Assembly: GCF_008641065.1 (NCBI RefSeq)
Contig: NZ_VTRS01000011.1
Location: 1-58,601 of the forward strand
Source of the DNA: Rhabdaerophilum calidifontis
GTDB taxonomy: Bacteria; Pseudomonadota; Alphaproteobacteria; Rhizobiales; Beijerinckiaceae
Direction of reading: 5' to 3'
Length of the DNA: 58,601 bases
The position numbers and the translations under genes are program-made. The notes below the pieces were generated by a model. It saw only the letters and a program-made list of their open reading frames with translations, ran no database searches and had not been told where the DNA came from. The number at the start of each line of letters is the position of its first letter. Position 1 is the first letter of the stretch. This document shows positions 41,283 to 58,601 of the stretch, one piece after another.

Positions 41283-44042
41283 TCACTGGGCCGGCCGCAT
41301 GGCGGGGCCGGCCGACGCGGCGGGACCACCGCCGTGCTCGATGTCGTAGAGAAGTCCGCCCTTGCGGGTGTAGAACCACCAGGTCACCGCGATGGAGATC
41401 AGGTAGAAGCCGAGGAAGGCGTAGAGCGCACCGGCCGCAGACCCGGTCATGGCGATCGAGGTCCCGAAGGTCTTCGGGATGAAGAAGGCGCCGTAGGCAG
41501 CAACCGCCGACGTGAAGCCGATGATCGCGGCCGCCTCCTTGTCGGATTGCCGGGTCAGCTCCACGCCCTTGAGACCGGGCTCGAGCCGCGCGACTTCCTT
41601 GCGCATGATCGCGGGGATCATCTGGAAGGTGGAGGCGTTCCCCACCCCGGTCATTGCGAACAGGAACATGAAGCTCGCGAAGAAGACCGGGAAGGCGGTC
41701 GGGCTGCCCTTCATGCCGATGGCATAGAGGATCCCGGCAACACCCACGCACATCAGGATGAAGGTCCAGAACGTGATGCGGCCGCCGCCGATCCTGTCGC
41801 AGGCCTTGCCGGCCGCGACACGGGCGAGCGCGCCGACGAGCGGGCCGAGGAAGGCGTATTGCAACGCGTTGACCTCCGGGAACAGCACCTTCGTCAGCAG
41901 CGGGAACCCGGCCGAATAGCCGATGAACGATCCGAAGGTGCCGGTATAGAGCCAGCACATGATCCAGTTGTGCCGGCGCCGGAAGATCACGGCCTGATCG
42001 GCAAAGCTCGCCTTCATCGACGCGATGTCGTTCATCCCGAACCAGGCCGCGAACGCGGAGGCGATGATGAACGGAACGAAGACGAAGCCCGCGTTCTGGA
42101 GCCAGAGCGTCGAGGTCACGCCGTTGATGGTCGCGGTCTGGGGCATCCCGCCGAGCCAGCCGAAGACCCCGCTCGTGATCACCAGCGGCACGACGAACTG
42201 CACCACGCTCACGCCCAGATTGCCGAGGCCGGCATTGATGGCGAGCGCATTGCCCTTCTCCGCCTTCGGGAAGAAGAAGGAGATATTGGCCATCGACGAG
42301 GCGAAATTGCCGCCGCCGAAGCCGCAGAGCAGCGCCAGCAGCAGGAAGACCCAATAGGGCGTATTCGGGTTCTGCACCGCCATGCCCATGCCGAGCGCCG
42401 GAATGAGCAGCGACCATGTGGCAAGCGTCGTCCACAGCCGGCCGCCGAACATCGCCGGCATGAAGCTGTAGAAGATGCGCAGCGTCGCGCCCGAAAGGCC
42501 GGGCAGCGCCGCGAGCCAGAAGAGCTGCTCGGTGGCAAAGGCGAAGCCGACGCTGGGCAGCCGCGCAACCACGACCGACCACACCATCCACACCGCGAAG
42601 GAGAGCAGCAGGCACGGCACCGAGATCCAGAGATTGCGCCGCGCAATGGCCCGCCCCTCCTGCTCCCAGAAGACGGGGTCCTCCGGCCGCCAATCCTGGA
42701 TCGCGCCGCGCCCGGCCAGCGCGCCCTCGTGCTTCGCTTCGTGGATCGGCTGCATTTCGGGGAGCTGCGGCAGCTTCGTCAGCTCTGGCCCTATCGCCTG
42801 CTTCTCCATCGACCGGATCGCGGCGTGCATCCAGATCAGGGAGATCGCGACGATGGCGAAGAGCAGCCAGAAGCAGGATTGCCAGACCCCCGTCAGGTCG
42901 TTGAGCGCGCCGAAGGCGATCGGGAGCAGGAACCCCCCGAGGCCGCCGACAAGACCGACGACACCGCCCACCGCGCCGACGCGGTCCGGGTAATAGACCG
43001 GGATGTGCTTGTAGACCGCCGCCTTGCCGAGGCTCATGAAGAAGCCGAGCACGAAGGCCGTCACGATGAAGCCGATGATCCCCATCCGGGTCGAGAATTC
43101 GACCGGCCCGCGAATACCCTCGACGACATAATGCGTCGGCGGATAGGAGAGGATGAAGGTGCACACCACCGAGACGATGAACGTCCAGTACATGATGGTG
43201 CGCGCGCCATATTTGTCCGACAGATGACCGCCATAGGCGCGGAAGATCGAGGCGGGGATCGAATACATCGCGCCGATCATGCCGGCGGTGGCGATGTCGA
43301 GCCCGTAGACGCCGATCAGATAACGCGGCAGCCACAGCGCCAGGGCGACGAAGGCGCCGAACACGAAGAAGTAATAGAGCGAGAAGCGCCAGACCTGGAT
43401 GTTCTTCAGCGGCTCCATCATCGCCGAGAGCGGCTCGGGCTTTGCGCCGCTCGCGCGGCGGCGGGCCAGATCCGGATCATCCTTGGTGAAGAGGAAGAAC
43501 AGCACCGCCGTCACGGCCAGCGCCGCCGCCCAGATGAGCGCAACGCTCTTCCAGCCATAGGCGACCATCACCACGGGCGCGGCGAACTTCGTCACCGCCG
43601 CGCCGACATTGCCGGCGCCGAAGATCCCGAGCGCGGTGCCCTGCTTCTCCTTGGGATACCATTTCGCGACATAGGCGATGCCGACCGAGAAGGACCCGCC
43701 AGCAATGCCGACGCCGAGCGCTGCGATCAGGAAGGTCAGGTAATCATAGGCGTAGGTGAGGAAGAAGGTCATCACCGCCGCAGTCAGCATCGTGAAAGTA
43801 TAGACGATGCGGCCGCCATATTGGTCGGACCAGATACCGAGGATCAATCGGATCAGCGAGCCTGTCAGGATCGGTGTTCCGACCAGCAGGCCGAACTGCG
43901 TGTCGTTGAGTCCAAGATCCTTCTTGATCTGGATTCCGATGATCGCGAAGATCGTCCAGACGGCGAAACAAACCGTGAAGGCGATCGTGGACAGCCAGAG
44001 TGCACGGCTCTGGTCGGACGGATTGACAGTGGCACTGGACAT
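41283..44042 (-). CDS. narK: Fused nitrate/nitrite transporter NarK1-NarK2
   Basis: A 919-residue membrane protein with two complete 12-helix major-facilitator domains. Residues about 15-410 form the NarK1-type half (nitrate/H+ symport) with GIQIKKDLGLNDTQFGLLVG. A soluble linker (about 410-467) leads to the NarK2-type half (nitrate/nitrite exchange, about 468-900) with FGGGNFASSMANISFFFPKAEKG. Each half carries the nitrate-signature glycine-rich motif (GIAGGSFSVGIAYVAKW in the first). The start at 44042 is preferred to an upstream one at 44090 because the conserved sequence begins there. The fusion is known in Paracoccus and relatives. It is first in the nar operon, downstream of FNR-type boxes. 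Confidence 0.95.
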   Translation of the reverse strand: MSSATVNPSDQSRALWLSTIAFTVCFAVWTIFAIIGIQIKKDLGLNDTQFGLLVGTPILTGSLIRLILGIWSDQYGGRIVYTFTMLTAAVMTFFLTYAYDYLTFLIAALGVGIAGGSFSVGIAYVAKWYPKEKQGTALGIFGAGNVGAAVTKFAAPVVMVAYGWKSVALIWAAALAVTAVLFFLFTKDDPDLARRRASGAKPEPLSAMMEPLKNIQVWRFSLYYFFVFGAFVALALWLPRYLIGVYGLDIATAGMIGAMYSIPASIFRAYGGHLSDKYGARTIMYWTFIVSVVCTFILSYPPTHYVVEGIRGPVEFSTRMGIIGFIVTAFVLGFFMSLGKAAVYKHIPVYYPDRVGAVGGVVGLVGGLGGFLLPIAFGALNDLTGVWQSCFWLLFAIVAISLIWMHAAIRSMEKQAIGPELTKLPQLPEMQPIHEAKHEGALAGRGAIQDWRPEDPVFWEQEGRAIARRNLWISVPCLLLSFAVWMVWSVVVARLPSVGFAFATEQLFWLAALPGLSGATLRIFYSFMPAMFGGRLWTTLATWSLLIPALGMGMAVQNPNTPYWVFLLLALLCGFGGGNFASSMANISFFFPKAEKGNALAINAGLGNLGVSVVQFVVPLVITSGVFGWLGGMPQTATINGVTSTLWLQNAGFVFVPFIIASAFAAWFGMNDIASMKASFADQAVIFRRRHNWIMCWLYTGTFGSFIGYSAGFPLLTKVLFPEVNALQYAFLGPLVGALARVAAGKACDRIGGGRITFWTFILMCVGVAGILYAIGMKGSPTAFPVFFASFMFLFAMTGVGNASTFQMIPAIMRKEVARLEPGLKGVELTRQSDKEAAAIIGFTSAVAAYGAFFIPKTFGTSIAMTGSAAGALYAFLGFYLISIAVTWWFYTRKGGLLYDIEHGGGPAASAGPAMRPAQ

Positions 44043-44116
44043 GACCGGGCCCGATGAATCGACACATCGCGGATTGGATGCGTGGAGCATCAGGGCGATC
44101 CGCGGCCATGGGAACC

Positions 44117-44245: not shown

Positions 44246-44311
44246 TGATGGAATTGAATAGCCCGCACAGGTTCGAGGCAGCCATCGTTCCGGAATGTGG
44301 GAGCATATGCC

Positions 44312-45010
44312 ATGCGGGCTGAAGAGCTGGCCGAGATGGGGCGACTGCCCCTGTTCGTCGACGTCACGGAGGCACATGTCGCCGCCATGCTGCGCGGTGC
44401 CTTCCTCCAGCGCTTTCCCGCCCATGTCGAACTCGTGCGCGAGGGCGAGCCGGCGGATTTCCTGCACGTCATCGTCGACGGCCAGGTCGAGGTCTTCGCC
44501 GCCTATCGCGACCGCGAGACCACGGTCTCGGTCCTCGGCACGGGACACAGCTTCATCGTCGCGGCGGTGCTGCTCGATCGGGTCTATCTGAAATCGGCGC
44601 GGACTCTGTCGCCCGCGCGTATCCTGCTGGTGCCGGCGGAGACCGTGCGCGCGTATTTCGCGATCGACGCCACCTTCGCCCGCGCGCTGGCGGTGGAACT
44701 TGCGCTCGCCTATCGCGGGGTCGTCAAGGAGCTGAAAAACCAGAAGCTGCGCTCGAGCCTCGAAAGGCTCGCCAACTGGCTGCTGATCCGTGATGCCGAG
44801 ACCGGCGGGACCGGGCGCTTCGACCTGCCCTTCGACAAGAAGATCCTTGCCTCGCGGCTCGGCATGGCGCCGGAAGTGCTCTCGCGCGCCTTCGCCTCGC
44901 TGGCCCCCTACCATGTCCGTGTCGAGGGGCCGCAGGTCCGGATCGGCGACCCCGCGGCGCTGGCGGGCCTGGCCCAGCCGAAGCCGACGATCGACGACCC
45001 GAACACCTGA
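44312..45010 (+). CDS. Crp/Fnr-family transcriptional regulator (Dnr/NnrR-like, cysteine-free)
   Basis: A 232-residue regulator with an N-terminal cyclic-nucleotide-binding-like beta-roll (LVREGEPADFLHVIVDGQVEVFA) and dimer helix. The C-terminal helix-turn-helix FDKKILASRLGMAPEVLSRAFASL has a recognition helix containing Glu188-x2-Ser191-Arg192, the FNR/Dnr specificity motif. There are no cysteines at all, so it cannot carry the FNR [4Fe-4S] cluster; a haem- or NO-based Dnr/NnrR mode or another signal is likely. The start at 44312 follows GGGAG; a GTG at 44297 would add five residues. It is divergent from narK, with FNR-type boxes between. Confidence 0.88.
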   Translation: MRAEELAEMGRLPLFVDVTEAHVAAMLRGAFLQRFPAHVELVREGEPADFLHVIVDGQVEVFAAYRDRETTVSVLGTGHSFIVAAVLLDRVYLKSARTLSPARILLVPAETVRAYFAIDATFARALAVELALAYRGVVKELKNQKLRSSLERLANWLLIRDAETGGTGRFDLPFDKKILASRLGMAPEVLSRAFASLAPYHVRVEGPQVRIGDPAALAGLAQPKPTIDDPNT

Positions 45011-45014
45011 CGCG

Positions 45015-45881
45015 TCACGGATCCCGCGAGGGCGCGCCGGGTGTTTCGGCTTCGGGTGGCAGGAAGCGGATGCGGCAGCGGAGACCGGCCGGCAGCCGAT
45101 ATTCGGGATTGGGCAGCCTGAGCCGGATGCCGAACGTGCTGCTCGCGGCATCGATAACCGGATCGATGACGATGACGGTGGCGATGTGGCGGCCGCCGAT
45201 CGGCTCCTCCGGCCGGATCTCGGCCCGGGCTCCGAGCGCGGTCTGACCGAAGAACGCGACCGGCACGAAAACCTCGACATGGAGCGGGTCGATGCGCGCC
45301 AGCGTCATCAGCGAGGCCTGATCGTGGCGATATTCGCCGGCGGCCATGGTCCGCTCGATCACCACGCCGTCAAGCGGGCTCAGCACGCGGCGCTGCGCGA
45401 GGCTCGCCTCGCTGCGCCGCGCTTCGAGACGCGCGGATTCCATCGCGAATTCGGCGTCGCGGATCAGGATTCCGGCGACCTTGGCCTCCGTCAGCGCTTC
45501 GTCGAGCTGGGATTCCGTCACGGCACCGGCATTGATCTGCTTCAGCCGCTGCAACCGCTCCGCCGTGCGGCGCGCGCGCTCGAAGCGCGCCCGCGCCGCC
45601 TCGATGGGCTGGTCATTGGCCGCGCGGGACCGCGCGAGATCGAGATTGGCGCGCTCGACGCTGGAATCGAGTTCGACCAGCAACTGCCCTGCCCGGACGC
45701 GGTCGCCCCGATCGACATGGACGCGCTCGATCAGCCCCGCCGCGCCGGCCGCGACCTTGACGCGGGAATGCGCGTCCATCAGGCAATCGAATTCGGCCTG
45801 ATCGAGCGGCGGCGCCGCTCGCGGCGCCCCGGCGAGCCCCATCGCCAGCAGACCGGAAACAACCAGAACGCGCATCGCCAT
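45015..45881 (-). CDS. HlyD/RND-type periplasmic adaptor protein
   Basis: A 288-residue secreted or membrane-anchored adaptor. A signal-like N-terminus (MAMRVLVVSGLLAMGLAGAPRA) is followed by half of a biotin/lipoyl domain (VAAGAAGLIERVHVDRGDRVRAGQLLVELDS), a coiled-coil hairpin (about 65-165, rich in Arg/Ala/Glu heptads), the second lipoyl half (RRVLSPLDGVVIERTMAAGEY) and a beta-barrel (DPLHVEVFVPVAFFGQTAL). Such adaptors bridge inner- and outer-membrane parts of exporters. It is divergent from the cluster at 46103-52425, which contains two further HlyD-type domains, and it ends five bases from the convergent regulator gene. Confidence 0.85.
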   Translation of the reverse strand: MAMRVLVVSGLLAMGLAGAPRAAPPLDQAEFDCLMDAHSRVKVAAGAAGLIERVHVDRGDRVRAGQLLVELDSSVERANLDLARSRAANDQPIEAARARFERARRTAERLQRLKQINAGAVTESQLDEALTEAKVAGILIRDAEFAMESARLEARRSEASLAQRRVLSPLDGVVIERTMAAGEYRHDQASLMTLARIDPLHVEVFVPVAFFGQTALGARAEIRPEEPIGGRHIATVIVIDPVIDAASSTFGIRLRLPNPEYRLPAGLRCRIRFLPPEAETPGAPSRDP

Positions 45882-46102
45882 GATGATCCGCCGCAAACCG
45901 GGAAGCCACAAGGAATATCGCGGCCGAAAACGCCATGGAACCGCGCTGCGATCAAGTCCTCGCACGCATTCCGCCGCGACACAATTGCCCTCTCCCGTCC
46001 TGTCATGCCAGTGTCATCTTGCTCTGGGACACGGCGGAGCTCGACCATCGACGGTCCGGGCCGTTTCCACGGTACTTTAAGTCAGAAACAGGGTCAGCAC
46101 GC

Positions 46103-46426
46103 ATGACGACGGCACAATCGGGGCAGGAACAGAAGACGGAAGCGGCCGAGGCGCCGGACGGCGCGGTGCCGGTCGTGTGGGACGACAGCAAGATGACGAC
46201 CCAGTTCGCCAATGTCGTCAACATCCAGAGCACCCTGGAGCAGATCGACCTGTTCTTCGGCACCAACAAGACCTGGAACGTCTCGAACGAGCGCCAGGTC
46301 AAGGTTGATCTCACCAACCGCGTCATCCTGAGCCCGCATGCCGCCAAGCGGCTCTGGGCGGCGCTCGGCGGCGTGCTCAAGGAATACGAGAGCCGGCACG
46401 GCGCGCTGAAGATCGACGGACGCTGA
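46103..46426 (+). CDS. DUF3467-family small protein
   Basis: A 107-residue protein with a disordered acidic N-terminus (about 1-27) and a compact domain TTQFANVVNIQSTLEQIDLFFG...VKVDLTNRVILSPHAAKRLWAALGGVLKEYE, which matches the DUF3467 pattern. No enzymatic motif or signal peptide is visible. It lies 16 bases before the GAF-HlyD gene and is first in the putative export operon, so it may be a cytoplasmic accessory or regulatory factor. The start at 46103 follows AGGGTCAGCACGC, a weak ribosome-binding site. Confidence 0.78.
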   Translation: MTTAQSGQEQKTEAAEAPDGAVPVVWDDSKMTTQFANVVNIQSTLEQIDLFFGTNKTWNVSNERQVKVDLTNRVILSPHAAKRLWAALGGVLKEYESRHGALKIDGR

Positions 46427-46442
46427 GCGGAGCGCGCCCGCC

Positions 46443-48281
46443 ATGGGGAGCGCCCGGGATGCTCCCGCGCCGATGATCCCGCCGCCGGCGGCGGAAGCCG
46501 GCGGAATCCACGATCCGGCGCTCTGGAAACGGCTCGCCGAGACGGCCGATGACGGTGAATTCGCCGCTTCCTGGCTCGCGCTCCAGGCCGGCTTCATCGC
46601 CGGCACGCGGCGGGCCCTGGTGCTGCTGCCGGCCTCGGATGGCGCGCCGGCACCCGTCCTCTGGCCCGACGGCGCCGCGATCGCGGATCTCCTTCCGGTC
46701 GCGGCCCAGGCGATCGCGGCGGCCAAGGGCGTCGCACAGCCCGATCCGGACGCGGCGCTGTGCCGGCTGGCCTTTCCCGTCCCGACCCGGTCCGGCGCGA
46801 CCGGCGCGGTCGCGCTCGAATGCGCGGCGCGCGACGAGCAGGCGATCCGCCGCGCGATGCGGGACTTGCAATGGGGCACGGGCTGGCTGCGGGCCCGGTT
46901 CGGGAGCGCAGGCGATCCCGGACGGCTCGGTGCGATCGTCGACCTGATGACCGCCGCCGCCGAGGCGGAAAGCCATCGCGCGGCCTGTCTCGCGGTCGCG
47001 ACCGAGGCGGCGCAGATCCATGGCTGCGATCGCGTCTCCATCGGCTTCGTGCGCGGCAATCGCTGCCGGATCGCGGCGATCTCGCACAGTGCGCTGTTCG
47101 GCCAGCAGATGAACCTCGTCCGGATGCTCGAAGCGGCGATGGACGAGGCGATCGACCAGCAGGCGATCCTCGTTCATCCGGCACCGCCCGATGAAACCAA
47201 TGTCACCCATGCGCATGCGGAATTCGCGGCACGGCAAGGGTCGGCGATTGTGCTCACCTGCCCGCTCGTGCTGCATGACCGCTTCACCGGCGCCATCACG
47301 CTCGAACGCCCCGCCGGGCGGCCCTTCGATTCCGCCACCATCGCCGCGATCGACGCGCTCGCCGGGGCGCTGGCGCCGATCCTGGAGGACAAGCGGCGGG
47401 GCGACCGCTGGGCGATCACCGTGGCGGGCGCGGCGCTGGCGCGCGGCGCGCGGGCGCTGCTCGGGCCGGGCCATGCCGCCGCCAAGCTCGCGCTGCTGAC
47501 CACCGCCGGGCTTGCGGCGCTCTTCGCGTTCTGGACCGCGCCCTACCGCGTGACGGCCGAGGCCGTGATCGAGGGCAGCGTCCAGCATGCCGTCGTCGCC
47601 TCGTTCAACGGCTTCATCCGCGAGGCGCCGGTGCGGCCGGGCGATGTGGTCGCGGCGGGGCAGCTCGTCGTCGCGCTCGACGACCGCGAACTGGCGCTCG
47701 AACGGCTGCGCTGGGTGACGGAGCGCCAGCGTCGGGTCATCGAATACGACCGCGCGCTCAGCGACCGCAACCGCGCCGAGACGCGGGCGCTGGCGAGCAT
47801 GATCGAGCAGGCCGAGGCGCAGATCCGGCTCGTCGACGAACAGCTCGGACGCACCCGGCTCACCGCGCCCTTCGCCGGGCTCGTGGTCAGCGGTGATCTC
47901 ACGCAATCGATCGGCGCCGCCGTGCAGCGCGGCCAGACCCTGCTCGAGATCGCGCCGGTCGACGATTACCGCGTGGTGCTCCAGGTCGATGAGAGCCAGA
48001 TCGGTGATATCCGCGCCGGCAGCGCGGGGGCGCTGGTCGCAGCCTCGCTGCCGCACCAGGCCTATCCGGTCTCGATCGCCCGCATCACCCCGGTCTCGAC
48101 CGCGCGCGAGGGCCGCAACACCTTCCGCGTCGAGGCCCGGCTCGAACGGCCGGTGCCGGAGCTGCGCCCCGGCATGCGGGGCGTCGCCAAGATCGAGATC
48201 GACACGCGGCGTGTGCTCTGGATCTGGACGCGCGCCGCGCAGAACTGGGCGCGGCTGGCGCTCTGGCGCTGGTTCGGCTGA
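46443..48281 (+). CDS. GAF domain-membrane anchor-HlyD adaptor protein
   Basis: A 612-residue protein with an unusual order: a helical N-terminal region (about 20-150), a GAF-like domain (about 158-315; CLAVATEAAQIHGCDRVSIGFVRG, VLTCPLVLHDRFTGAITLER), one membrane helix (about 343-365; LALLTTAGLAALFAFWTAPYRV), then a HlyD module with lipoyl halves (FNGFIREAPVRPGDVVAAGQLVVALDD and LTAPFAGLVVSGDLTQSIGAAVQRGQTLLEIAP), a coiled coil between them, and a barrel. The cytoplasmic GAF part could bind a small ligand or partner and signal to the periplasmic adaptor. Three bases separate it from the M50 gene. Confidence 0.85.
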   Translation: MGSARDAPAPMIPPPAAEAGGIHDPALWKRLAETADDGEFAASWLALQAGFIAGTRRALVLLPASDGAPAPVLWPDGAAIADLLPVAAQAIAAAKGVAQPDPDAALCRLAFPVPTRSGATGAVALECAARDEQAIRRAMRDLQWGTGWLRARFGSAGDPGRLGAIVDLMTAAAEAESHRAACLAVATEAAQIHGCDRVSIGFVRGNRCRIAAISHSALFGQQMNLVRMLEAAMDEAIDQQAILVHPAPPDETNVTHAHAEFAARQGSAIVLTCPLVLHDRFTGAITLERPAGRPFDSATIAAIDALAGALAPILEDKRRGDRWAITVAGAALARGARALLGPGHAAAKLALLTTAGLAALFAFWTAPYRVTAEAVIEGSVQHAVVASFNGFIREAPVRPGDVVAAGQLVVALDDRELALERLRWVTERQRRVIEYDRALSDRNRAETRALASMIEQAEAQIRLVDEQLGRTRLTAPFAGLVVSGDLTQSIGAAVQRGQTLLEIAPVDDYRVVLQVDESQIGDIRAGSAGALVAASLPHQAYPVSIARITPVSTAREGRNTFRVEARLERPVPELRPGMRGVAKIEIDTRRVLWIWTRAAQNWARLALWRWFG

Positions 48282-48284
48282 GCC

Positions 48285-50432
48285 ATGGCCGGGCCGCTCT
48301 ACAGCCCCTCCTGGTATCGCGTCGCCGAGTTGCGGCCAAGGCTGCGGCCGCATGTCGAGATCCACCGGCAATCGCTGCGCGGCGATGTCTGGTATGTCGT
48401 CCAGGATCATCAGACCGGGCAGTTCCACCGGCTGTCGCCGGCCGGTTATTTCGTCCTCGGGCAGATGGACGGGCGGCGCAGCGTCGACGAGATCTGGCGG
48501 CGCGCCTGCGCGCGACTCGGCGACGAACAGCCGACGCAGCAGGAACTCGTCGAGTTGCTAGCCCAGCTCCACGGCGCCGACCTGATCCTCGGCGACGTGA
48601 CGCCGGATCTCGCCGAGATGGATCTCCGCGCCGCCCGCCACCAGAAACGCACGCTGCTCTCGCGGCTGCGCAACCCGCTGGCGCTGCGGCTGCCACTGCT
48701 TGACCCCGACCGTTTCCTCGCCGCGACCCTGCCGCTTGTGCGGCCGCTCTTCACGCATGCGGGCTTCGCCGCCTGGCTTCTGCTGGTCCTCGCCGGGATC
48801 GTCGTCGGCGCCGTCAATTTCGAGGCGTTCGGCGCCGGCATCGCCGACCAGGCACTCACGGCCGAGAACGTGCTGCTGATCCTGCTGCTCTACCCCGCGG
48901 TCAAATGCATCCACGAACTCGGGCATGCCTATGCCACCAAGGTCTGGGGCGGCGAGGTGCACGAGATGGGCGTGATGGTGCTGGTCTTGATGCCGGTCCC
49001 CTATCTCGACGCCTCGGCCTCGACCGGCTTCCGCGACCGCCGGCAGCGCATGATCGTCGGCGGGGCGGGCATCCTTGTCGAACTGGCGCTGGCGGCGCTG
49101 GCGATGATCGTATGGGCGCTCGCGGAGCCGGGGCTCCTGCGCGCCGTGGCATTCAACGTGGTGCTGATCTGCGGCGTCTCGACCCTGGTGTTCAACGCCA
49201 ATCCGCTTTTGCGTTTCGACGGCTATTACGTACTCTCCGATCTCCTGGAGATCCCCAATCTCGCGAGCCGCGCCAACAAATACGTGCTCTACCTCATCGA
49301 GCGTCACGGGTTCGGGGTCAGCGAGGCCATTTCCCCCGTCACCGCGCCAAGCGAGCGCGGCTGGCTGCTCGCCTATGCGATCGCCTCCTTCCTCTACCGG
49401 TTCGCGATCATGCTGACGATCGCGCTCTATATCGCGACGCAGCTGTTCTTCGTCGGCGTCGGGCTGGCGCTGATCTCGGTGTTCGGGGCGGTGGTCTGGC
49501 CGCTGCTCAAGGGCATCCGGCATCTTGCAACCGGCGCGAGCCTGCGCGGCCGGCGCCGGCGCGCCCTTGCGGTCAGCGCCGCCGCCGCAGGGGCGATGAT
49601 CCTGCCGCTGCTCGCGCTGCCCCTGCCCCATGCCACCATGGCCCAGGGAATCGTCTGGGTCGGCGAACAGGCGGCATTGCGCGCCGAGGCCGACGGGATC
49701 GTGACCGCGATCATCGCCCATAGCGGCGCGCGCGTGGCCGCCGAGGCGCCGATCCTCGTCGCGGAGGACCGCGTCCTCGCCGCGATGCTCGCGGTGCAGG
49801 GGCATCAGCTCGCGGAATTGCAGGCGCGGCTGGAGGCGGTGCGGCTCACCGATCTCGTCCAGGCCAACCTGCTGCGCGAACAGGTGCGCAACCTCGAGGG
49901 CCAGATCGCCGAGAGCCGCCGCCGGCTCGCGGGGCTGGAGCTGCGGAGCGCGCGCGCCGGCCTGTTCCTCGCCTCCGACATGACCGACCTGCCCGGCCGG
50001 CTGCTGCGGCGCGGCGACGTGGTCGGCTATGTGCTCGGCGAGGAGGATCCGGTGGTCCGCGTCGTCGTCACGCAGGCCGATGTCGATCTCGTCCGCCGCA
50101 GCACGCGGGCGATCACGATCCGCTTCAGCGAGCGCATCGAGGAGGCGCTGCCCGCGACGTTGCTCCGCGAAGTGCCCGCGGCGCAGGCGGAATTGCCGCA
50201 TCTCGCGCTTGCCACCAGCGGCGGCGGCACGATCCTCCTCGATCCGATGGCGCAGGATCGGCCGCGCGCGCTCGAACCGATCTACCAGTTCGACCTGCGC
50301 CTGCCGCCCGGCGCGGCACCGCCCCGGCTCGGCGGGCGCGTCCATGTCCGGTTCGCGCATCCCGACGAACCCGCCGGGCCGCGCCTGCTGCGCGCCGCGC
50401 GCCAGGTGTTCCTGAGGCAGTTCGGTGTCTGA
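48285..50432 (+). CDS. PqqD-like / M50 site-2 metalloprotease / HlyD-like membrane protein
   Basis: A 715-residue polytopic protein. The N-terminus (about 25-105; YVVQDHQTGQFHRLSPAGYFVLGQMDGRRSVDEIW) is PqqD-like, the fold that binds leader peptides in RiPP systems. The membrane core holds the M50 zinc site His210-Glu-x2-His214 (CIHELGHAYATKVWGGEVHEMG), with the third ligand probably Asp312 in LLRFDGYYVLSDLLEIPNL. The C-terminal third (from about 455) has a lipoyl-like half domain (AEADGIVTAIIAHSGARVAAEAPILVAED), a coiled coil and a barrel. It probably recognises and cleaves or guides an exported protein. It overlaps the SecA-like gene by eight bases. Confidence 0.87.
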   Translation: MAGPLYSPSWYRVAELRPRLRPHVEIHRQSLRGDVWYVVQDHQTGQFHRLSPAGYFVLGQMDGRRSVDEIWRRACARLGDEQPTQQELVELLAQLHGADLILGDVTPDLAEMDLRAARHQKRTLLSRLRNPLALRLPLLDPDRFLAATLPLVRPLFTHAGFAAWLLLVLAGIVVGAVNFEAFGAGIADQALTAENVLLILLLYPAVKCIHELGHAYATKVWGGEVHEMGVMVLVLMPVPYLDASASTGFRDRRQRMIVGGAGILVELALAALAMIVWALAEPGLLRAVAFNVVLICGVSTLVFNANPLLRFDGYYVLSDLLEIPNLASRANKYVLYLIERHGFGVSEAISPVTAPSERGWLLAYAIASFLYRFAIMLTIALYIATQLFFVGVGLALISVFGAVVWPLLKGIRHLATGASLRGRRRRALAVSAAAAGAMILPLLALPLPHATMAQGIVWVGEQAALRAEADGIVTAIIAHSGARVAAEAPILVAEDRVLAAMLAVQGHQLAELQARLEAVRLTDLVQANLLREQVRNLEGQIAESRRRLAGLELRSARAGLFLASDMTDLPGRLLRRGDVVGYVLGEEDPVVRVVVTQADVDLVRRSTRAITIRFSERIEEALPATLLREVPAAQAELPHLALATSGGGTILLDPMAQDRPRALEPIYQFDLRLPPGAAPPRLGGRVHVRFAHPDEPAGPRLLRAARQVFLRQFGV

Positions 50433-52425
50433 AGCGGCACTCCCCGCGCGGCACAACCTGCCCAATCCCCGCCGCCGCGCCGAGCGCGAGATCCGGCACG
50501 AGACCCTGCTCGACCGCTGGCTTGCGGAGGCGGAAGCCGCGATCGTCGCCGCCATCGCGCCGCTGCGCCGGCACGGGCTCGCGCGGATCGTTGCGGAAGT
50601 CCGCCGCCGCGAGGCCGCGCTCGCCAGGCTCTCCGATGCGGAGATCCGCGCCGCGGCACGGGATTGCGGGCGGCGCATGCGCGGCGGAGCGCTGACCGCG
50701 CCGGCCCTCGCGGGCGAGGCGTTCGCGCTGGTGCGCGAGGCGTCCGGCCGGGTGCTCGGCAAGCGGCATCACGATGTGCAGCTCATCGGCGGCTACGCCC
50801 TGCTCCGCGGCATGCTCGCCGAGATGAATACCGGCGAGGGCAAGACGCTGACCGGCACCCTCGCCGCGATCAGCGCCGCGCTGGCCGGGATCCCGGTGCA
50901 TGTGGTCTCGGTCAACGATTATCTCGTGCGCCGTGACGCCGAGGCGCTGGGGCCGCTCTATGCCTTTTTCGGCCTGCGGGTCGGGATCGTGGTCCATGGC
51001 CAGAGCCCGGCCGAGCGCCGCGCGGCCTATGCCTGCGACGTCACCTATTGCTCGAACAAGGAGCTGGCCTTCGATTACCTGCGCGACCGGCTGGCGCTCG
51101 GTCGCACGCGCGGCGCCAACCGCGCGCGGCTCGCGGCGCTCGCCGGCGGCGAGGCCGCCGAGGCCGCCCTGCCGGTGATGCGGGGGCTGCATTTCGCGAT
51201 CATCGACGAGGCGGACAGCGTGCTGGTCGACGAGGCGCGCACGCCGCTGATCCTGTCGCGCAACCTCTCCTCCGAGGAGGAGGCGCGGCTCTATGCCGAG
51301 GCGCTGGCGCTCGCGGGCGCACTCCGCGAGCCGGAGGAATACCGCCTCCACCGCGCCGAACGGCGCATCGAGCTGACCCCGGCCGGCAAGGCGGCGCTGG
51401 CCGAACGCGCCCGGAAGCTCGGCGGCCCCTGGCTCAGCCGTCCGCAGCGCGAGGAGCTGATCCACCAGGCGCTGACGGCGCGGCACCTGATGATCCGCGA
51501 CGAGCATTACATCCTGCGCGACGGCAAGGTGCAGATCGTCGATGAATATACCGGGCGCATCATGGCCGACCGGTTCTGGACCGACGGCCTGCACCAGCTG
51601 GTCGAGATCAAGGAGGGTTGCGCGCTCTCCCAGCGGCGGGCGAGCCTCGCGCGCCTCACCTACCAGCGCTTCTTCCGCCGCTATCTTCGCCTCGCCGGCA
51701 TGAGCGGCACCGCGACCGAGGTCGCGGCCGAGCTCTGGCGCGTCTACCGGCTGGCGGTGGCGCGCGTGCCGCCGCACCGCCCGTCGCGACGGCGGCTGGC
51801 GCCCGACCGCATCTTCGCAACCGAAGCCGAGAAATGGGCGGCCCTGGCCGCCACCTGCGCCCGGTTGCGCGCGCAGGGCGTGCCGATCCTGATCGGCACG
51901 CGCTCGGTCGGCGCGTCGAACGCCGCCGCGGCGCGGCTCGCCGACGCCGGCATTCCCCATCAGGTGCTCAACGCCGCGCAGGATGCCGAGGAGGCCGCGA
52001 TCATCGCCGGAGCCGGCGCGCCCGGCCGCGTCACCATCGCCACCAACATGGCCGGGCGCGGCACCGACATCCTGCTCGCCGGTGCCGCCGCGGAAGCGGG
52101 CGGGCTGCATGTGCTGCTGACCGAACGCCACGATTCGCGCCGGATCGACCGTCAGCTCATCGGCCGCTCGGCGCGGCAGGGCGATCCCGGCTGGGCGCAG
52201 GCGCTGCTCTCGCTCGAAGATCCGCTGCTCGAGGCCGTGAAGGGCGAATTGGGCCTGCGGCTCGCGCGGCTGGCGCTCGCTTCCGGATGGGAATGGCCGG
52301 CAAGGCGGATCATCCGCCGCGCACAGCGGCTCGCCGAGCGCCAGAACGCGCGGATCCGCGCCGAATTGCTGCTGCGCGAGGACGGCCTCGATCAGGCGCT
52401 GGCCTTCTCCGGCCGGCCGGAATGA
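50425..52425 (+). CDS. Short divergent SecA-like translocation ATPase
   Basis: A 666-residue DEAD-type motor related to SecA (usually 850-900 residues), starting at GTG inside the end of the M50 gene. Walker A is EMNTGEGKTLTGTLAA, Walker B is IIDEADSVLVDEARTPLIL, then VQIVDEYTGRIMADRFWTDGLHQLVEIKEG, LAGMSGTATEVAAEL, IATNMAGRGTDILLAG and the final arginine-finger region IDRQLIGRSARQGDPG. Most of the region after residue 620, including the zinc-binding SecB-interaction tail, is missing. The cross-linking domain seems reduced. It is therefore an accessory SecA, presumably dedicated to the giant protein encoded next to it, not the housekeeping translocase. Confidence 0.9.
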   Translation: MSEAALPARHNLPNPRRRAEREIRHETLLDRWLAEAEAAIVAAIAPLRRHGLARIVAEVRRREAALARLSDAEIRAAARDCGRRMRGGALTAPALAGEAFALVREASGRVLGKRHHDVQLIGGYALLRGMLAEMNTGEGKTLTGTLAAISAALAGIPVHVVSVNDYLVRRDAEALGPLYAFFGLRVGIVVHGQSPAERRAAYACDVTYCSNKELAFDYLRDRLALGRTRGANRARLAALAGGEAAEAALPVMRGLHFAIIDEADSVLVDEARTPLILSRNLSSEEEARLYAEALALAGALREPEEYRLHRAERRIELTPAGKAALAERARKLGGPWLSRPQREELIHQALTARHLMIRDEHYILRDGKVQIVDEYTGRIMADRFWTDGLHQLVEIKEGCALSQRRASLARLTYQRFFRRYLRLAGMSGTATEVAAELWRVYRLAVARVPPHRPSRRRLAPDRIFATEAEKWAALAATCARLRAQGVPILIGTRSVGASNAAAARLADAGIPHQVLNAAQDAEEAAIIAGAGAPGRVTIATNMAGRGTDILLAGAAAEAGGLHVLLTERHDSRRIDRQLIGRSARQGDPGWAQALLSLEDPLLEAVKGELGLRLARLALASGWEWPARRIIRRAQRLAERQNARIRAELLLREDGLDQALAFSGRPE

Positions 52426-52428
52426 TCC

Positions 52429-55400
52429 TCAGCGGCGCGGCAGCGTGAGCCAATCCTCGCCGGATGCGGCAAGGAAGGCGGTGGGCACCGTCTCCGTCGC
52501 CTCGATCCAGAGCCAATCCGGATCCGGCTCCGCAAGGCCCGGGCCGGCGGCATCGGGCCGCGCCTCGGCGAGCAGGTCGAGCCTGGCGGCGAGCACACGG
52601 TCGAAGCTGGTGACGCGGCGCGGCGCCCCGGCGCCGAGAACGAGCGCCGCGCCGGCCATCAACCCCGGCGTCAGGACCATGTCCGCACCCGCATCCGGCA
52701 TGCTCCCGCGCGCGCGGCGCGCCGCATCCGGGGCGGCCCCGTGCCGGGGCTCCGGCTCGGGCGCGAGACCGGGCGCGTCCTGCCCGGAACCGCGGCCGGC
52801 GGTCGCACCGGACATGCCGCCGGCGGAGGGAAGCGCGCGCCGGACGCGATCCTCGGCATCGGTGCCGGCCGCCGCCACGGCCGAGCCGGGCGCATCGGGC
52901 GCGCGGCCAAGCGGATCATAGGGCACGAGATACGGCGCGCCCTCGTCGGAATAGGCGTCGGGATCGACCGAGGCGGTCTTCGGCGGCACCTTGCCGCCCC
53001 CGAGGATCAGTTCGCTCGGCGCGCCGTAATCCGGCGCGAAGAACCCCGCGGCGCCGGGGCCGGTGCTCGTCATGACCGGCAGCAGGGCGGGCGCCAGCCG
53101 CTCCGGATCGGCCTCGATGGGCGGCGTCACCTGGATCGCGAACGTGACGAGGGCGATATCGGTATCGTCATCCGCCACGGCGAGCCGGATCTGGAACCCG
53201 CCGAGCGCGCGATAGGCGTGATCGACGCGGAAGCCGCGCGTGACCGGATCGACCGCGATCCGCTCGACCGTGCCGTCGCCCCAGTCGATGGTCACGACAT
53301 GGGTATCGAGCGTCCCGGTCTCGGTGAAGAAACCCTCGACGAAGGTGCGCTCGCCCGGCACCAGCCCCTGCCGGGTGATCGTCGCCGTCAGGACCGGCGC
53401 CGCATTGGCGACGCGGATCTGCGCGAGCGCCTCGGTGCTGGCGCCGTCCTTGTCGGTCACGCGCAGGCGGATCTGGTAATCGTCGCCGGAGGTCGCGGTG
53501 GGATCGTCGTCGAGATAGCTGTGCTCGGCCGAGAAGCGGTAGAGCCCGGCCTGCGCGTCATAGGTGATGCCGCCGCCCGGCGCGGTGGTCAGCGTCAGGC
53601 GATGCGGCCGCGTCACGCCGCCCGCCGCCTTCTCGCCGAAGCTGATCTCGAGCGTATAGGGCGCATCCGCCGCGCCGCCGGCATCGGAGAACGCGCCTTC
53701 GAGCCGCAGCCGCCCGTTCTCGAGCAGGGTCAGCGTCACGGGCGGCAACGCGCCGGAAATCCCGCCGGAAACGTCGCGCCAGATCGCCGGGCGCCGGATC
53801 CCGTCGGCGAGGTCGGTCAGCGCGATCGCGCGGAAGACCGGCGGCGCGTTGAGCACGCTTACGTCGACCGTCTCGCGATCGCTGTCGCCGCGCTCGTCCG
53901 TGACCGTGACACCGATCGTGTAGGGCGCATTGCCGGGGCGGTTGTCGGCGTAGACATGGCGGACCATGAAGCTGCGGTTGACCGGATCGACGACGATATC
54001 CGCGCCGATGCCGGCCGAGCGCGAGAGGGTGCCGTCGCCCCAATCGATGACGATCGCATGCGTGTCGAGCGGGCCGGGATCGGTGAAGGTGCCGGTCAGC
54101 ACCACCGCGCTGCCCTCCTCGGCAGGGCTCGGCGCCACGTTGAGCGCGGTGATCGCCGGCGGCAGGTTGAGCACGGCGAAGCCATGCGTCACCTGCGTCG
54201 CGCCGCCGTCATCGTCGGCGATCGCGACCGTAACGCGGTAATTGCCGTCCTGCGCGAATTGCCGCGCCAGGCTGAAATCGCGGGTGCCGGTGACGAAAGT
54301 CAGCCCCGAGGCATCCGGATCGACCGCGAACACGCTCCAGAGCCCCGGCGCATGCTCGACCTCCCAGGTCACGACCATCCGATGCACATCGAGCGTGCCC
54401 GGATCGGCGAAGCGGCCCGACACGATTGCGAAGCCGTTCTCGAACACTGGCAGCGCGCCGCCCGCGCCTGCCACCGCCGAGGCGGTGATCACCGGCGCGA
54501 CATTGTCGACCACCAGTTCATGGGCGCCGAAATCGTATTGGCCGCTGCCATCCACGGCCCAGATCCGGGCCTGATAGGTGCCGTTGTCGAGATAGCGATG
54601 CGTGAAGCGCGCCGCGGTGATCGTCTCGCCGTTCGGCGCGAGCGTCCGCGTGCCGCCGGGGAAGGTTTCGCGCGTGCCGTCGCCCCAATCGACGATCCAG
54701 TCGCGGATCACGTCGGCGCCGGGATCGCGGACCGTGATCGTGAGCGTGCTGAGCACACCTTCCGGCTGTGCATCGCGCGTCACGCCGACCAGAACCGGCG
54801 GCACCTCGTTGATCCGGATTGTCGTCAGCCCCTCGGCGACGCCGCCATCCTTGTCGATGATCTGGCCGCGCACCGTCAGGGAGCCGGATTCCCGCAGCCA
54901 TTGCGCCGGGATGGTGCCGGTGAAGCCTCCGGAATGCGGCGTGACAATCTGGTTTAAGATCTCAATCCATGACGCGGATGCCGCATCGAAAACATCGATC
55001 CGATACCGCAATCGATCCTGATCCGGCGCCGCAGGGTCGCCGGTACCCGCGAAGGCGACGGAGGCGCTCGCGGCGCCCTCGTCCACCGTGCTGCCGGTGA
55101 ATGCCAGGAACGACGGCGCGACATTGGAGACGGTGAGCGCCGTCGCCCCGCCCTGCTGGAGAAGCGCGCCGTAGCGGACCTGGAGCGACACGGCATAGGT
55201 GCCGGAATCGACCACCCCGTTCTGGCCCCAGGCGAAATCGAGAACCGGCGCCGCGCCGCTGCTGATCGTGACCGCCGAGGGGCCGGTGCCGATCGTCCAG
55301 AGATATTCCGTCGGCGCCCCCGGCGCGGTCGCGGTCAGGGTCACGCGGCCGCCCTCGCGGATCGCGTAAGGCCCGCCCGGCGACAGGTCCTGCTGCCGGA

Positions 55401-58400
55401 CGCGGATCTCATAGGCATAGGCGGCCGACCAGGTCGGCACCGGATCACCGGCGGCATCGCGCGTCGCAGGATCGTCGTCGATCACGCCGACCCGCAGCGT
55501 GAAGCGGCCGGGCTGCGCGAAGACGCGCGTCGCCGCGGCGCTCGTCGAGCCGAAGATCTCGTCGACCGTGCCGTCGCCGTCCCAGTCGATCACCCAGTTC
55601 ACCGCCCGGTCGACGGCGGAGGCGTCGATGGCGAGGAAATCGCGGATCTCGAAGGGCTGGCCGACATAGCCCACCGGCGGCACCGTGGCCGTCACTGCCG
55701 GGCGGCGGTCGGCCAGCGCGACGCGCGCGGCGGCCGAGCCCGTCAGCGGCACATTGTTGGTGGCGCGGGCGGCGATGGCGAACGGCGAGAACCGGCTCTC
55801 GCGCAGGCCGAGTTCCACGAGCCGCGCCCAGGACAGGGTGACATCATAGAAATTGGAGGCCGGCCCCTGGCGGATTCCGGTGACATCGCCGAACAGCCCG
55901 TCGCCGTCGATGTCGAACACCACGCCCGGCGGCGCGACGCTGCCATCGCCGAAGGGGATGACCTCGACGCGGATCGTCAGGTCCTGCCCCTCGATTGCCG
56001 ACAATTGCGTCTGCTCAAGCCCGGTCGCGGGGTCGATGAAGCGGATCACAGGCGCGGCCGCGATCGCGTAGCCCTCGAAGCTCGTATAGACGAGGCGGCC
56101 GCGGCCGGGCAGTTCCAGCGCGCCGTCCGGCAGGAGCGGACCGGGAACCGGGCTGCCGGATGCGTCGAAGGCCGAGATCGTGGCGGCAGGCGGCACCACG
56201 AAGCGCAGCCGGTCGCCCGTCGCGCCGCCCGTCGGGTCGTCGCCATGGGCGATCGTCATCGCATCGGCCGGGAGATTCTCGGCGAACACGATCACCTCGT
56301 CATCGCCGGAACCGGCGAAGACCCGCGTCACCGCGCCGGGGCCGACGCGCTCGATCGTGATGATGTCGGCGCCGCCGCCGGGGCTCGTCCGGTCGTCGTC
56401 GCCGTAGATCTCGGTCACGGCGCGGGCGCCGGTCGAGACGATGGTGATGCGGTCGTCGCCGCGCCCGCCGAACAGGGTGAGGGCGCGGTCGGCACTCTGC
56501 GCGCGCAATTCGGCCGTATCATCCCCCGCGCCGAGTTCGATGCGGGTCGAGGCGCCGAAATCGGCGACGACAACCCCGTCTGCGCCGCCATTCGTGCGCA
56601 CGAGGGTCGATTCGACGATGGCGGGCGGCGCGAGCGCGATCTGGACCCGGTCGTCGCCGTCGCCGGTGACAAGCCCGATCGCCTCGACATGGTGATGCTC
56701 GGTCACGAAGCGCGATGGCGGCGCCTGCGGCGAGAGATCGGCGACGAAGCGCGCGAAACCGCCGATCTCGACCGGCATGCCGAGGCTGCCGACGAACACC
56801 TCCAGCGTGTTGGCGACGGGATCGTATTGCCCCAGCGCCAGCGCCGCCGGGGTTTCGAGGCCGCGGATGCCGGCGACATCCTCGCGCAGCACCTGCGCGA
56901 ATTGCAAAGCCGGCAGCAGGGTTCCGTCCTGTCGCTCGCGCACGAACACCGCGAGCGTGTTGCCGGCGCCGCCGGTGACGAGGACATAGCGCCCGTCCGG
57001 CGTCACCGCGATATCGCTCGGCGCCGCGAGGCCACGCACCCCGTCCTGGCCGTTGCGCAGCGTCTGGACATGCTCCAGCGGATCGCCCGGCCGGCCGGTG
57101 GCGCGGAAGACCGCCAGCGTGTCGGAGGCGCCTCCGGTCACGAACAGGAAGCCGCCATTGGCATCCTGGTGATAGGCGAGGTCGGCGGCGCCGGCGAGGC
57201 CGAGGCCGAAGCCCGCGAAGCTCTGCACCACGGCCCCGCTTGCGAGATCGACGACGCGGAGCGCGTCGCCCGCCGCGTCGGCGATGAAGGCGAGATTGCC
57301 GTGGGTCACGATCTCGGTGCCGGGCGCGGCGGTCACAAGGGTCGCGGCGCCGAGCGCGCCGGAGGCATCGAGCGTCAGCCGGATCGTGCCGCCGGCGCCG
57401 CTCGCGAACACGGTCGTGCCTTCGATCCGCAGCGCGTCGTGGAACTGGCCGGCGACCTGGGTCGCGCCGAGGAACCGGAGATTGGCGCCGACGCGCTCGA
57501 ACACCGCGATCTTCTGCTCGCTCTGGCTGGCGACGAGCACGAAGCCGCCGGCGGCATCCCCGCCGACGGCCAGCGCCGAGGCGCCGTCCAGCCCATCGAT
57601 CACCCGACCGTTCATGGCGTCGGTCTGGCCGTCCTTGAACAATTGCCGCTGCGAGCCATCCGCGAGGTTGATCACCACCAGCGCGTCCTGCCCTGATGCG
57701 AGGCCGTAGGCATGGCTCGGCGCGGCGCCGGCCGCAGCCGGACGCAGCGCGACCGCGTCGAATCCCTGAATGTCCGCAACCTGCGGCGCCGCCGCGCGCT
57801 GGGCCGCGATGTAGCGCACGCCGTTATCGGCGATCGAGACGCCGGAGAGCATCGACACCGAGCCGGCAATCTCGGTCGCGATCGACGCATAGAGCCCGTT
57901 GGTCACCGTGCTGCCGTTGAACAGCGCGTCGTCCTCGCGGACCAGAACCGCCCAGACCGCATCGTCCGGCAGGCTCGTGAGCGCGGTATCGGCCTGCAGG
58001 CCGCCGGTCATCAGAGCCTGCGCGGCGATGCCGAAGCCGATCGCTGGGCTGGCGATCGCCAGGCCGGAGACATTGGCGAACAGGATCAGGTCGTAGCCGG
58101 GAAAGACCTCGCGGAACGGGTTGTCGGTCGCGAGCGCGAGATCGTAGCGCAGGATCCCGACCAGCGCATTGGCCTGCGGACCGTCAATATCGGCGTCGGA
58201 GAGGTCGTAATCGAGCGAGCGGGCGCTGAGCCCTGCGACGATGCCGAACACCTCGGCGCCGCCGGCGATCCCCGGCAGGTTGGCCGTCTGCGGCGCGCCG
58301 AGGATATAGGGGTTGAGGCCCGTCGGCCCGGCATAGCGCTCGATCCCGGTCAAGGCGATGCCTGCGAGATTGCCGGCCTGCGGCTCGACCGCCTGCGTGT

Positions 58401-58601
58401 TCGAGGCGATGATGAACCGCCCGCCCTCGCCGCTGCCCGCGCGCCCGCCCTCGAAGCGGACGCCGCCGAGGCCGCCCTGGACGTCGATGATGGCACCGCC
58501 GGCGTTCACGTCGGTGGCATAGAGCTTGATCGTGCCGCCGGCGCCGCCGCCGCCCGCGCCGCCCGCGCCGCCCACCCGGCCGTCACCGCCGCGCGCGCCG
58601 C
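52429..58601 (-). CDS. Giant surface/secreted protein with beta-propeller, GDD-repeat and PKD-like domains (N-terminus outside window)
   Basis: The frame is open through the right edge, so over 2,050 residues are visible and the start is missing. From the edge: a Gly-rich stretch (RVGGAGGAGGGGAGGTIKLY), a beta-propeller (about 265-600; VTPDGRYVLVTGGAGNTLAV), acidic GDD repeats resembling RTX/haemolysin motifs (TGDGDDRVQ, GAGDDTAEL, GGRGDDRIT, GSGDDEVIV; about 640-755), then a series of PKD/cadherin-like domains with DWDGDGT or DWGDGT turns near 1003, 1298, 1515 and 1766. The last 230 residues are Pro/Ala/Gly-rich with a hydrophobic patch LMAGAALVLGAGA near 1975. It should be an extracellular adhesin or matrix protein. 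Its stop lies three bases from that of the SecA-like gene. Confidence 0.85.
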   Translation of the reverse strand, partial: GARGGDGRVGGAGGAGGGGAGGTIKLYATDVNAGGAIIDVQGGLGGVRFEGGRAGSGEGGRFIIASNTQAVEPQAGNLAGIALTGIERYAGPTGLNPYILGAPQTANLPGIAGGAEVFGIVAGLSARSLDYDLSDADIDGPQANALVGILRYDLALATDNPFREVFPGYDLILFANVSGLAIASPAIGFGIAAQALMTGGLQADTALTSLPDDAVWAVLVREDDALFNGSTVTNGLYASIATEIAGSVSMLSGVSIADNGVRYIAAQRAAAPQVADIQGFDAVALRPAAAGAAPSHAYGLASGQDALVVINLADGSQRQLFKDGQTDAMNGRVIDGLDGASALAVGGDAAGGFVLVASQSEQKIAVFERVGANLRFLGATQVAGQFHDALRIEGTTVFASGAGGTIRLTLDASGALGAATLVTAAPGTEIVTHGNLAFIADAAGDALRVVDLASGAVVQSFAGFGLGLAGAADLAYHQDANGGFLFVTGGASDTLAVFRATGRPGDPLEHVQTLRNGQDGVRGLAAPSDIAVTPDGRYVLVTGGAGNTLAVFVRERQDGTLLPALQFAQVLREDVAGIRGLETPAALALGQYDPVANTLEVFVGSLGMPVEIGGFARFVADLSPQAPPSRFVTEHHHVEAIGLVTGDGDDRVQIALAPPAIVESTLVRTNGGADGVVVADFGASTRIELGAGDDTAELRAQSADRALTLFGGRGDDRITIVSTGARAVTEIYGDDDRTSPGGGADIITIERVGPGAVTRVFAGSGDDEVIVFAENLPADAMTIAHGDDPTGGATGDRLRFVVPPAATISAFDASGSPVPGPLLPDGALELPGRGRLVYTSFEGYAIAAAPVIRFIDPATGLEQTQLSAIEGQDLTIRVEVIPFGDGSVAPPGVVFDIDGDGLFGDVTGIRQGPASNFYDVTLSWARLVELGLRESRFSPFAIAARATNNVPLTGSAAARVALADRRPAVTATVPPVGYVGQPFEIRDFLAIDASAVDRAVNWVIDWDGDGTVDEIFGSTSAAATRVFAQPGRFTLRVGVIDDDPATRDAAGDPVPTWSAAYAYEIRVRQQDLSPGGPYAIREGGRVTLTATAPGAPTEYLWTIGTGPSAVTISSGAAPVLDFAWGQNGVVDSGTYAVSLQVRYGALLQQGGATALTVSNVAPSFLAFTGSTVDEGAASASVAFAGTGDPAAPDQDRLRYRIDVFDAASASWIEILNQIVTPHSGGFTGTIPAQWLRESGSLTVRGQIIDKDGGVAEGLTTIRINEVPPVLVGVTRDAQPEGVLSTLTITVRDPGADVIRDWIVDWGDGTRETFPGGTRTLAPNGETITAARFTHRYLDNGTYQARIWAVDGSGQYDFGAHELVVDNVAPVITASAVAGAGGALPVFENGFAIVSGRFADPGTLDVHRMVVTWEVEHAPGLWSVFAVDPDASGLTFVTGTRDFSLARQFAQDGNYRVTVAIADDDGGATQVTHGFAVLNLPPAITALNVAPSPAEEGSAVVLTGTFTDPGPLDTHAIVIDWGDGTLSRSAGIGADIVVDPVNRSFMVRHVYADNRPGNAPYTIGVTVTDERGDSDRETVDVSVLNAPPVFRAIALTDLADGIRRPAIWRDVSGGISGALPPVTLTLLENGRLRLEGAFSDAGGAADAPYTLEISFGEKAAGGVTRPHRLTLTTAPGGGITYDAQAGLYRFSAEHSYLDDDPTATSGDDYQIRLRVTDKDGASTEALAQIRVANAAPVLTATITRQGLVPGERTFVEGFFTETGTLDTHVVTIDWGDGTVERIAVDPVTRGFRVDHAYRALGGFQIRLAVADDDTDIALVTFAIQVTPPIEADPERLAPALLPVMTSTGPGAAGFFAPDYGAPSELILGGGKVPPKTASVDPDAYSDEGAPYLVPYDPLGRAPDAPGSAVAAAGTDAEDRVRRALPSAGGMSGATAGRGSGQDAPGLAPEPEPRHGAAPDAARRARGSMPDAGADMVLTPGLMAGAALVLGAGAPRRVTSFDRVLAARLDLLAEARPDAAGPGLAEPDPDWLWIEATETVPTAFLAASGEDWLTLPRR

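Follow-up and report, generated by a model that had tools for sequence, protein, structure and literature searches.

Two described systems resemble the one considered here. Accessory Sec (SecA2/SecY2/Asp) is a Gram-positive system dedicated to large adhesins, and type I secretion combines an ABC exporter, HlyD and TolC, for example for giant proteins of the LapA or RTX type, with a C-terminal signal. In this study we ask how single chains of thousands of residues might be exported where no ABC exporter lies adjacent, and we name a candidate machine. It is encoded in a stretch of 58,601 nucleotides from Rhabdaerophilum calidifontis (assembly GCF_008641065.1, contig NZ_VTRS01000011.1; hereafter the window), which makes up the whole of that contig (C2). 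A cassette of genes for a DUF3467 protein, a GAF-HlyD protein, a PqqD-M50-HlyD protein and a short SecA paralogue lies there next to the C-terminal part of a giant protein of the LEPR-XLL type. We consider it probable, at roughly 60%, that this cluster encodes a machine dedicated to the export of LEPR-XLL giants. One paper (PMC10868602) mentions an LEPR-XLL giant in Vibrio.

Results

The cassette and the LEPR leader co-occur far above chance. Among 149 genomes of the family, homologues of the M50 protein with at least 41% identity were found in 13 (at least 575 bits; next match 196), and LEPR-XLL was found in the same 13. Twelve of them contain a short SecA scoring at least 699 bits and the thirteenth (G050) a piece of 493 bits cut by the contig end; the next matches, among those listed, reach at most 572 bits and are mostly frames of housekeeping length. 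Identical sets of 13 would arise by chance with a probability of 6e-19, a value that assumes independent genomes, which these related ones are not. The 13 genomes are spread over 8 of 43 genera. In 398 genomes of the phylum, a few of them shared with the family sample, two M50 candidates were scored per genome. M50 homologues of the kind found in the window (group A, at least 483 bits) are present in 36 genomes, LEPR-XLL in 40 and both in 31 (Fisher odds ratio 243, p 6e-33, kinship ignored). The next M50 scores were 361, 360 and 337, from three intermediate proteins without a PqqD part that we excluded from group A, followed by at most 302. Nine genomes have LEPR only. Eight of these carry a distant M50 protein of a second type, group B, and the one leader read in each has the form LEPRxxxD(A/G)A; the ninth (G351) has the leader LEPRVLLYGDP and, at the limit applied, did not match M50. 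Five genomes have M50 only: G327 carries a LEPRLLFSAT giant beside its cassette, which the 24-position model missed, and no LEPR motif was found in the 7-19 kb read in the other four.

The two elements are also physically linked. Of the 31 genomes, 16 have M50 and LEPR on one contig, the closest pair being at most 20 kb apart in all 16 and at most 3 kb apart in 11; in the other 15, the window genome included, they are on separate contigs. G160 carries a LEPR giant on each of four contigs (C1, C17, C25 and C29) and a SecA-like gene within about 9 kb of each frame; the copy on C17 is degenerate. To see how far the arrangement extends, 84,980 species genomes were scanned with the M50 alignment, which returned at least 507 relatives, and the best 80 of these supplied the loci described below. 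They belong to Alpha-, Beta- and Gammaproteobacteria, Desulfobulbus rhabdoformis and metagenome-assembled genomes labelled Deltaproteobacteria, Nitrospira and Myxococcota. SecA follows M50 on the same strand in 78 of the 80 (L102 has 39 bases of room), so that the arrangement is not due to chance. Among the phylum loci, SecA lies beside M50 in 27 of 30; G229 is cut by the contig end, and G327 and G470 have none. An open reading frame of at least 1,500 residues is present in 46 of the 80 flanks; frames were called throughout as simple stop-bounded stretches from the first ATG, GTG or TTG, with nominal starts for the leaders, and some long ones are antisense shadows. The earlier note on this DNA had named a lack of linkage between such SecA homologues and M50, HlyD or giant-protein genes as grounds for dropping the idea; in many genomes SecA homologues of this length are so linked, and the idea stands up to this test.

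M50 homologues of 35-52% identity occur on 13 plasmid records, five of them typed as conjugative. pMSC49a of Methylosinus sp. C49 carries in one row a giant (coding sequence of 26,544 bases), DUF3467, an adaptor, a PqqD family protein, a gene annotated as prepilin peptidase, which occupies the position of the short SecA, a further adaptor and TolC. On pDSM107133_a of Pseudosulfitobacter a giant of about 12,700 residues is accompanied by DUF3467, an adaptor, a PqqD protein and a 'translocase', with no second adaptor or TolC. A Rhodobacteraceae plasmid has adaptor, M50 and 'SecA' genes adjacent; among the annotations in the stretch shown there is no giant. Plasmid-borne cassettes, locus L303 among them, occur in Methylosinus, Rhizobium, Mesorhizobium and roseobacters.

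The giant frame in the window is cut off because the contig ends there, and the leader cannot therefore lie inside the window. The earlier note had suspected an LEPR-XLL leader beyond it, and this proved right: LEPR-XLL (NF012209) matches the genome once, at C12:375136 (28.9 bits, cut-off 17), in a frame that stays open from about 375000 to the contig end at 391809. We looked for an overlap between the two contig ends and found no exact terminal one of more than 10 bases; the halves were therefore joined by colinearity with a relative (G078) whose giant is one open frame of 8,870 codons. The alignment of the C12 half reaches residue 5544 of this frame (its main pieces being 41-46% identical), and that of the C2 half starts, colinear with the first, at residue 5878 (38% identity), which puts about 280 residues in the gap. 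By this alignment the two frames are the same protein, of which the window contains approximately the last quarter, the full length being about 7,900 residues. Open frames of giants range from about 2,800 to 19,400 codons; the LEPR giant at G205:C115:112865 has an open frame of 19,427. On C12, upstream of the giant and divergent from it, lies a frame of 2,507 residues (L037:1042-8565) which ends in GGDGND-type repeats, looks by eye like an extracellular nuclease or nucleotidase and is a second secretion candidate.

Leaders of group A have a basic stretch followed by LEPRxLLSAD or a variant of it (NAD, SGE, NSD); that of G130, LEPRVLLDGT, is nearer to group B. They are weakly hydrophobic and lack the hydrophobic core that is seen in HlyD-type N-termini: the best 12-residue segment is at most 1.74 in 29 of 31 leaders, while by the same measure only one of 51 HlyD-adaptor N-termini falls below 1.75 (median 2.27).

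The short SecA is a truncated protein that lacks the last third of SecA. A profile of 46 short SecAs aligns with Bacillus subtilis SecA up to residue 605-608 and then ends. With the domain limits as we take them to be, NBD1, PPXD, NBD2 and the start of the long scaffold helix are kept, and the helical wing, the two-helix finger and the C-tail are presumably lost. A SecA without the parts thought to push the substrate into SecY would be a natural experiment on SecA function. The predicted structure (predicted local distance difference test, pLDDT, 89.2; predicted template modelling score, pTM, 0.88) matched B. subtilis SecA (1tf5) with the best E-value in Foldseek; the best TM-score among the matches listed was to SecY- and substrate-engaged SecA (6itc, TMq 0.81, root-mean-square deviation 3.1). 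Walker A has the form GEGKT or GEGKS in 45 of the 46 aligned proteins, and DEAD or DEVD is present in 45 as well. With strict patterns Walker A fails in seven of 71 complete locus copies, three of these, L131, L155 and L156, being without any of the four motifs; in the family set the Walker A pattern fails in G123 and the DEAD pattern in G071. In a tree made by a quick method (L131 left out, L155 and L156 absent), a branch supported at 100 separates 48 short SecAs from 22 longer SecAs, among the latter a second SecA of 831 residues from G120. As far as these sequences tell, the short SecAs are one clade separate from housekeeping SecA. The housekeeping SecA of the window genome is on contig C11 and shares 45% identity with the short one over residues 38-509. 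The short SecA stays below the cut-offs of the housekeeping models TIGR00963 (577 vs 800 bits) and NF009538 (589 vs 814) and of four SecA2 models (532 vs 1085, 458 vs 725, 441 vs 930 and 385 vs 1100).

The layout of the locus is given in Table 1. The earlier note had described an HlyD adaptor gene and four further genes as one packed set. For the four the spacing holds (16 bases from DUF3467 to GAF-HlyD, 3 bases from there to M50, and an overlap of 8 bases between M50 and secA); the adaptor gene is divergent from this set at 46103-52425 and lies outside it. As had been noted, the giant frame converges on secA with 3 bases between the stops. HlyD families are recognized in three locus proteins, and RND_mfp exceeds its cut-off solely in the adaptor. 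A Pfam scan of seven locus proteins, with no genome-wide search made, gave no ABC exporter, which agrees with the earlier reading of the locus, and no SecY, SecY2 or Asp. Four bases from the end of the adaptor gene is a gene for a Crp/Fnr-type regulator (44297-45010). It sits between the adaptor gene and a frame of 935 residues (41283-44090) that resembles, by eye, a fused NarK-type transporter, and it may regulate either side.

Table 1. Genes of the candidate export locus in the window
Feature	Position	Strand	Profile matches
HlyD adaptor, RND-type periplasmic	45015-45965	-	HlyD_D23 3e-21; RND_mfp 1.8e-37, 129 bits (cut-off 94.9)
DUF3467 protein, small	46103-46426	+	PF11950 1.4e-16
GAF-transmembrane-HlyD protein, 612 residues	46443-48281	+	HlyD_3 1.3e-17; GAF 2e-6
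PqqD-M50-HlyD protein, 715 residues; candidate leader receptor and site-2-type protease	48285-50432	+	PqqD PF05402 9.5e-9; M50 2.9e-5
Short SecA paralogue, 666 residues	50425-52425	+	SecA_DEAD 8e-99; P-loop_SecA 6e-51; SecA_PP_bind 2e-24
LEPR-XLL giant, C-terminal part, 2,056 residues	52429-58601 (frame to 58599)	-	PKD_4 4e-24; open at contig end

The PqqD-like domain proposed earlier is well above its cut-off (35.9 bits, cut-off 23.4). The M50 match lies slightly below its own (23.9 bits, cut-off 27.2); HELGH and NANPLLRFDG are present and conserved, the zinc-site motifs being found in 80 of 80 (HExxH) and 79 of 80 relatives (NxNPxxRxD). The closest curated model, the daptide protease NF041824, gives 166 bits, below its cut-off of 300, and the public annotation is PqqD family peptide modification chaperone. 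From its domains the protein is a candidate for leader receptor and site-2-type protease in one chain. In the GAF-HlyD protein a predicted helix (345-363) separates a cytoplasmic-type part from the HlyD part, and the model (pLDDT 88.8, pTM 0.57) matches the fold of MacA/MexA-type adaptors. This gene is upstream of M50 in 75 of the 80 loci; in the other five the M50 match begins at contig base 6-418. A homologue of the RND-type adaptor is present in 62 of the 80, in three of them on the opposite strand. In most relatives it follows secA on the same strand; in the window it is divergent.

DUF3467 was found in 11 of the 13 cassette genomes of the family (not in G014 and G123) and in none of 25 cassette-less genomes, hand-chosen from 136. 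It scores in 33 of the 80 loci; the L123 match is in an odd frame of the opposite strand. G019 has two copies 2-3 kb past the ends of two giant frames and away from the cassette, and in G108 the gene lies just before the giant; from these positions DUF3467 tracks the substrate. We considered a SecB-like chaperone and rejected it, as the profile comparison was empty and a search of solved structures, at E up to 1, gave no match. A SapC-family gene was likewise rejected as a constant member: it is found in 24 of the 80 loci (one representative confirmed), in L153 at 12185-12979 between M50 and secA and in 23 others of L092-L171.

The earlier note had found no TolC-like channel here. This stands for the window, where a seven-sequence OEP profile gave no match, and does not extend to all relatives, some of which carry one in the locus. 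OEP/TolC genes come after the adaptor in G078 and G042, and 8 of 41 loci, seven of them group A, have one within 1.5 kb of the LEPR start. The note had also suggested looking for a channel beyond the window. The same small profile gave none in the 10 kb ahead of the giant's leader; the window genome gave four OEP matches overall, two of which were listed, and has one such gene elsewhere, at C12:230428. The two OEP/TolC proteins near LEPR starts that were scanned carry AMIN domains. In two genomes, AMIN-domain TolC-family proteins of about 870 residues, an unusual domain pairing, lie directly before LEPR giants (L284:2255-4867, L285:1774-4395).

A sister system, group B, has PqqD/M50-HlyD and HlyD without SecA (loci L061-L078, L229, L232 and L241). 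As a control, short SecA was found in none of 18 group-B regions. Both group-B loci scanned with Pfam have a TolC-family gene. Giants with LEPR-like leaders beside M50 are found in G049, G130, G022, G226 and G332, that of G130 reading LELR; G049 and G130 hold both systems. The two groups share M50-HlyD, HlyD and a leader of the LEPR type and differ in the second half of that leader, which suggests that the shared core reads it. The sister system offers a built-in comparison for leader specificity.

Discussion

How might such a cassette work? We propose that the PqqD-like domain of the M50 protein would recognize the basic, weakly hydrophobic leader of the giant in the cytoplasm. The short SecA would then use ATP hydrolysis to thread the unfolded chain through the inner membrane. 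The pore might be SecYEG, or it might be formed by the M50 and GAF-HlyD proteins with their membrane parts, and the M50 site might cut or release the leader. The HlyD-type proteins and a TolC-family channel could form the conduit that leads the chain outward. Such a channel is encoded in the locus in some relatives and elsewhere would presumably be shared with other pumps. DUF3467 might be a partner that travels with the giant. The candidate machine would comprise leader, possible receptor, motor and conduit, and each of these can be tested. A bolder form of the proposal is an undescribed Gram-negative secretion class, in which a finger-less SecA drives giants through an M50/HlyD pore other than SecYEG after a PqqD-type reading of LEPR, with a sister class that uses the same leader logic without SecA. 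We regard this only as a tentative possibility, more doubtful than not. No description of such a system was found in the literature searched, where coverage of preprints and subscription papers was thin, so that this is weak evidence of absence.

Gene content and order, co-occurrence, the leader, the truncation of SecA and the conserved catalytic residues are directly observed. Each functional step of the route is something we infer, and this weighs against a dedicated export machine, as do several further points. The p-values overstate the association because the genomes are related. Both LEPR giants of G019 are distant from the cassette, and in G165 and G153 a second LEPR giant is separated from the cassette by 0.6 and more than 1 Mb, respectively. 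Pfam scans of two group-B M50 proteins found no PqqD. Only 3 of the 80 cassette flanks contain TolC, which for this reason was rejected as a constant member. Finally, short SecA is missing from the cassettes of L123, where 9,994 bases of room are available, and of G327 and G470, where a search of the whole genome found housekeeping SecA alone; five further copies are degenerate (182-228 bits; L131, L155, L156, G150 and G160:C17). With these three and five cases the motor is usual but not universal; either housekeeping SecA is borrowed in its place or the machine manages without.

The SecA exceptions bear directly on the strongest alternative. The cassette might be a targeting module in front of ordinary Sec, in which the short SecA acts as a cytosolic pilot or unfoldase and passes the giant on to the housekeeping SecA and SecYEG; M50 and HlyD proteins would come into play only later, in its release and its passage outward. 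The presumed loss of the helical wing and two-helix finger region would fit such a role, as would G327 and G470, whose cassettes are otherwise complete. However, nearly all short SecAs keep their NTPase motifs and the best superposition of the model is with a SecY-engaged SecA, both of which one would expect of a motor, and the leaders do not have a Sec-like hydrophobic core. We judge this alternative a serious one, though improbable.

It is also conceivable, and we think clearly unlikely, that the M50-HlyD, GAF-HlyD and TolC proteins alone are the exporter, as in group B, and that the short SecA has an auxiliary part in quality control or regulation and is being lost in some lines. Group B, if functional, does without SecA in the locus, and the eight group-A cases in which SecA is absent or degenerate would be lines of this kind. 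On the other hand, SecA is retained in nearly all of the best 80 loci, and in G160 its copy number follows that of the giants. That the cassette serves peptide modification or efflux and is merely a frequent neighbour of the giant, as its annotation and the daptide protease as nearest curated M50 model could be taken to mean, is largely contradicted and very improbable, since the genome sets are identical even with giant and cassette far apart (G019) and the association recurs across phyla.

We therefore return to a dedicated machine for LEPR-XLL giants and to the systems it resembles. With accessory Sec it shares a second SecA that would serve one large, presumably surface-borne protein with a special leader. 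It differs in its Gram-negative host, in a C-terminally shortened SecA that scores below the SecA2 cut-offs, in its PqqD-M50 and HlyD partners, and in that neither SecY nor Asp is among the seven locus proteins scanned, a genome-wide search not having been made. HlyD-type adaptors, a giant substrate and, in some relatives, a TolC-family channel are features of type I secretion, whereas the N-terminal leader, the presence of SecA and M50 and the lack of an ABC exporter among the scanned locus proteins are not. Judged by its genes, the cluster lacks the defining features that were tested: for type I secretion an ABC exporter in the locus, for accessory Sec scores above the SecA2 cut-offs and SecY2 in the locus. 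The M50 protein has the architecture of daptide (NF041824) and epipeptide (NF058609) proteases, a PqqD-like part with an intramembrane HExxH site; unlike them, it has an HlyD-like C-terminal part, is linked to giants and not to peptides, and stays below the cut-off of both (for the epipeptide model 37 vs 225 bits). The giant itself belongs to the LEPR-XLL proteins, which are named for their N-terminal domain. In the material covered here this domain comes without an export system, and the SecA/M50/HlyD cassette is what the present analysis adds. The proposed route may act as a mixture of type I secretion and accessory Sec.

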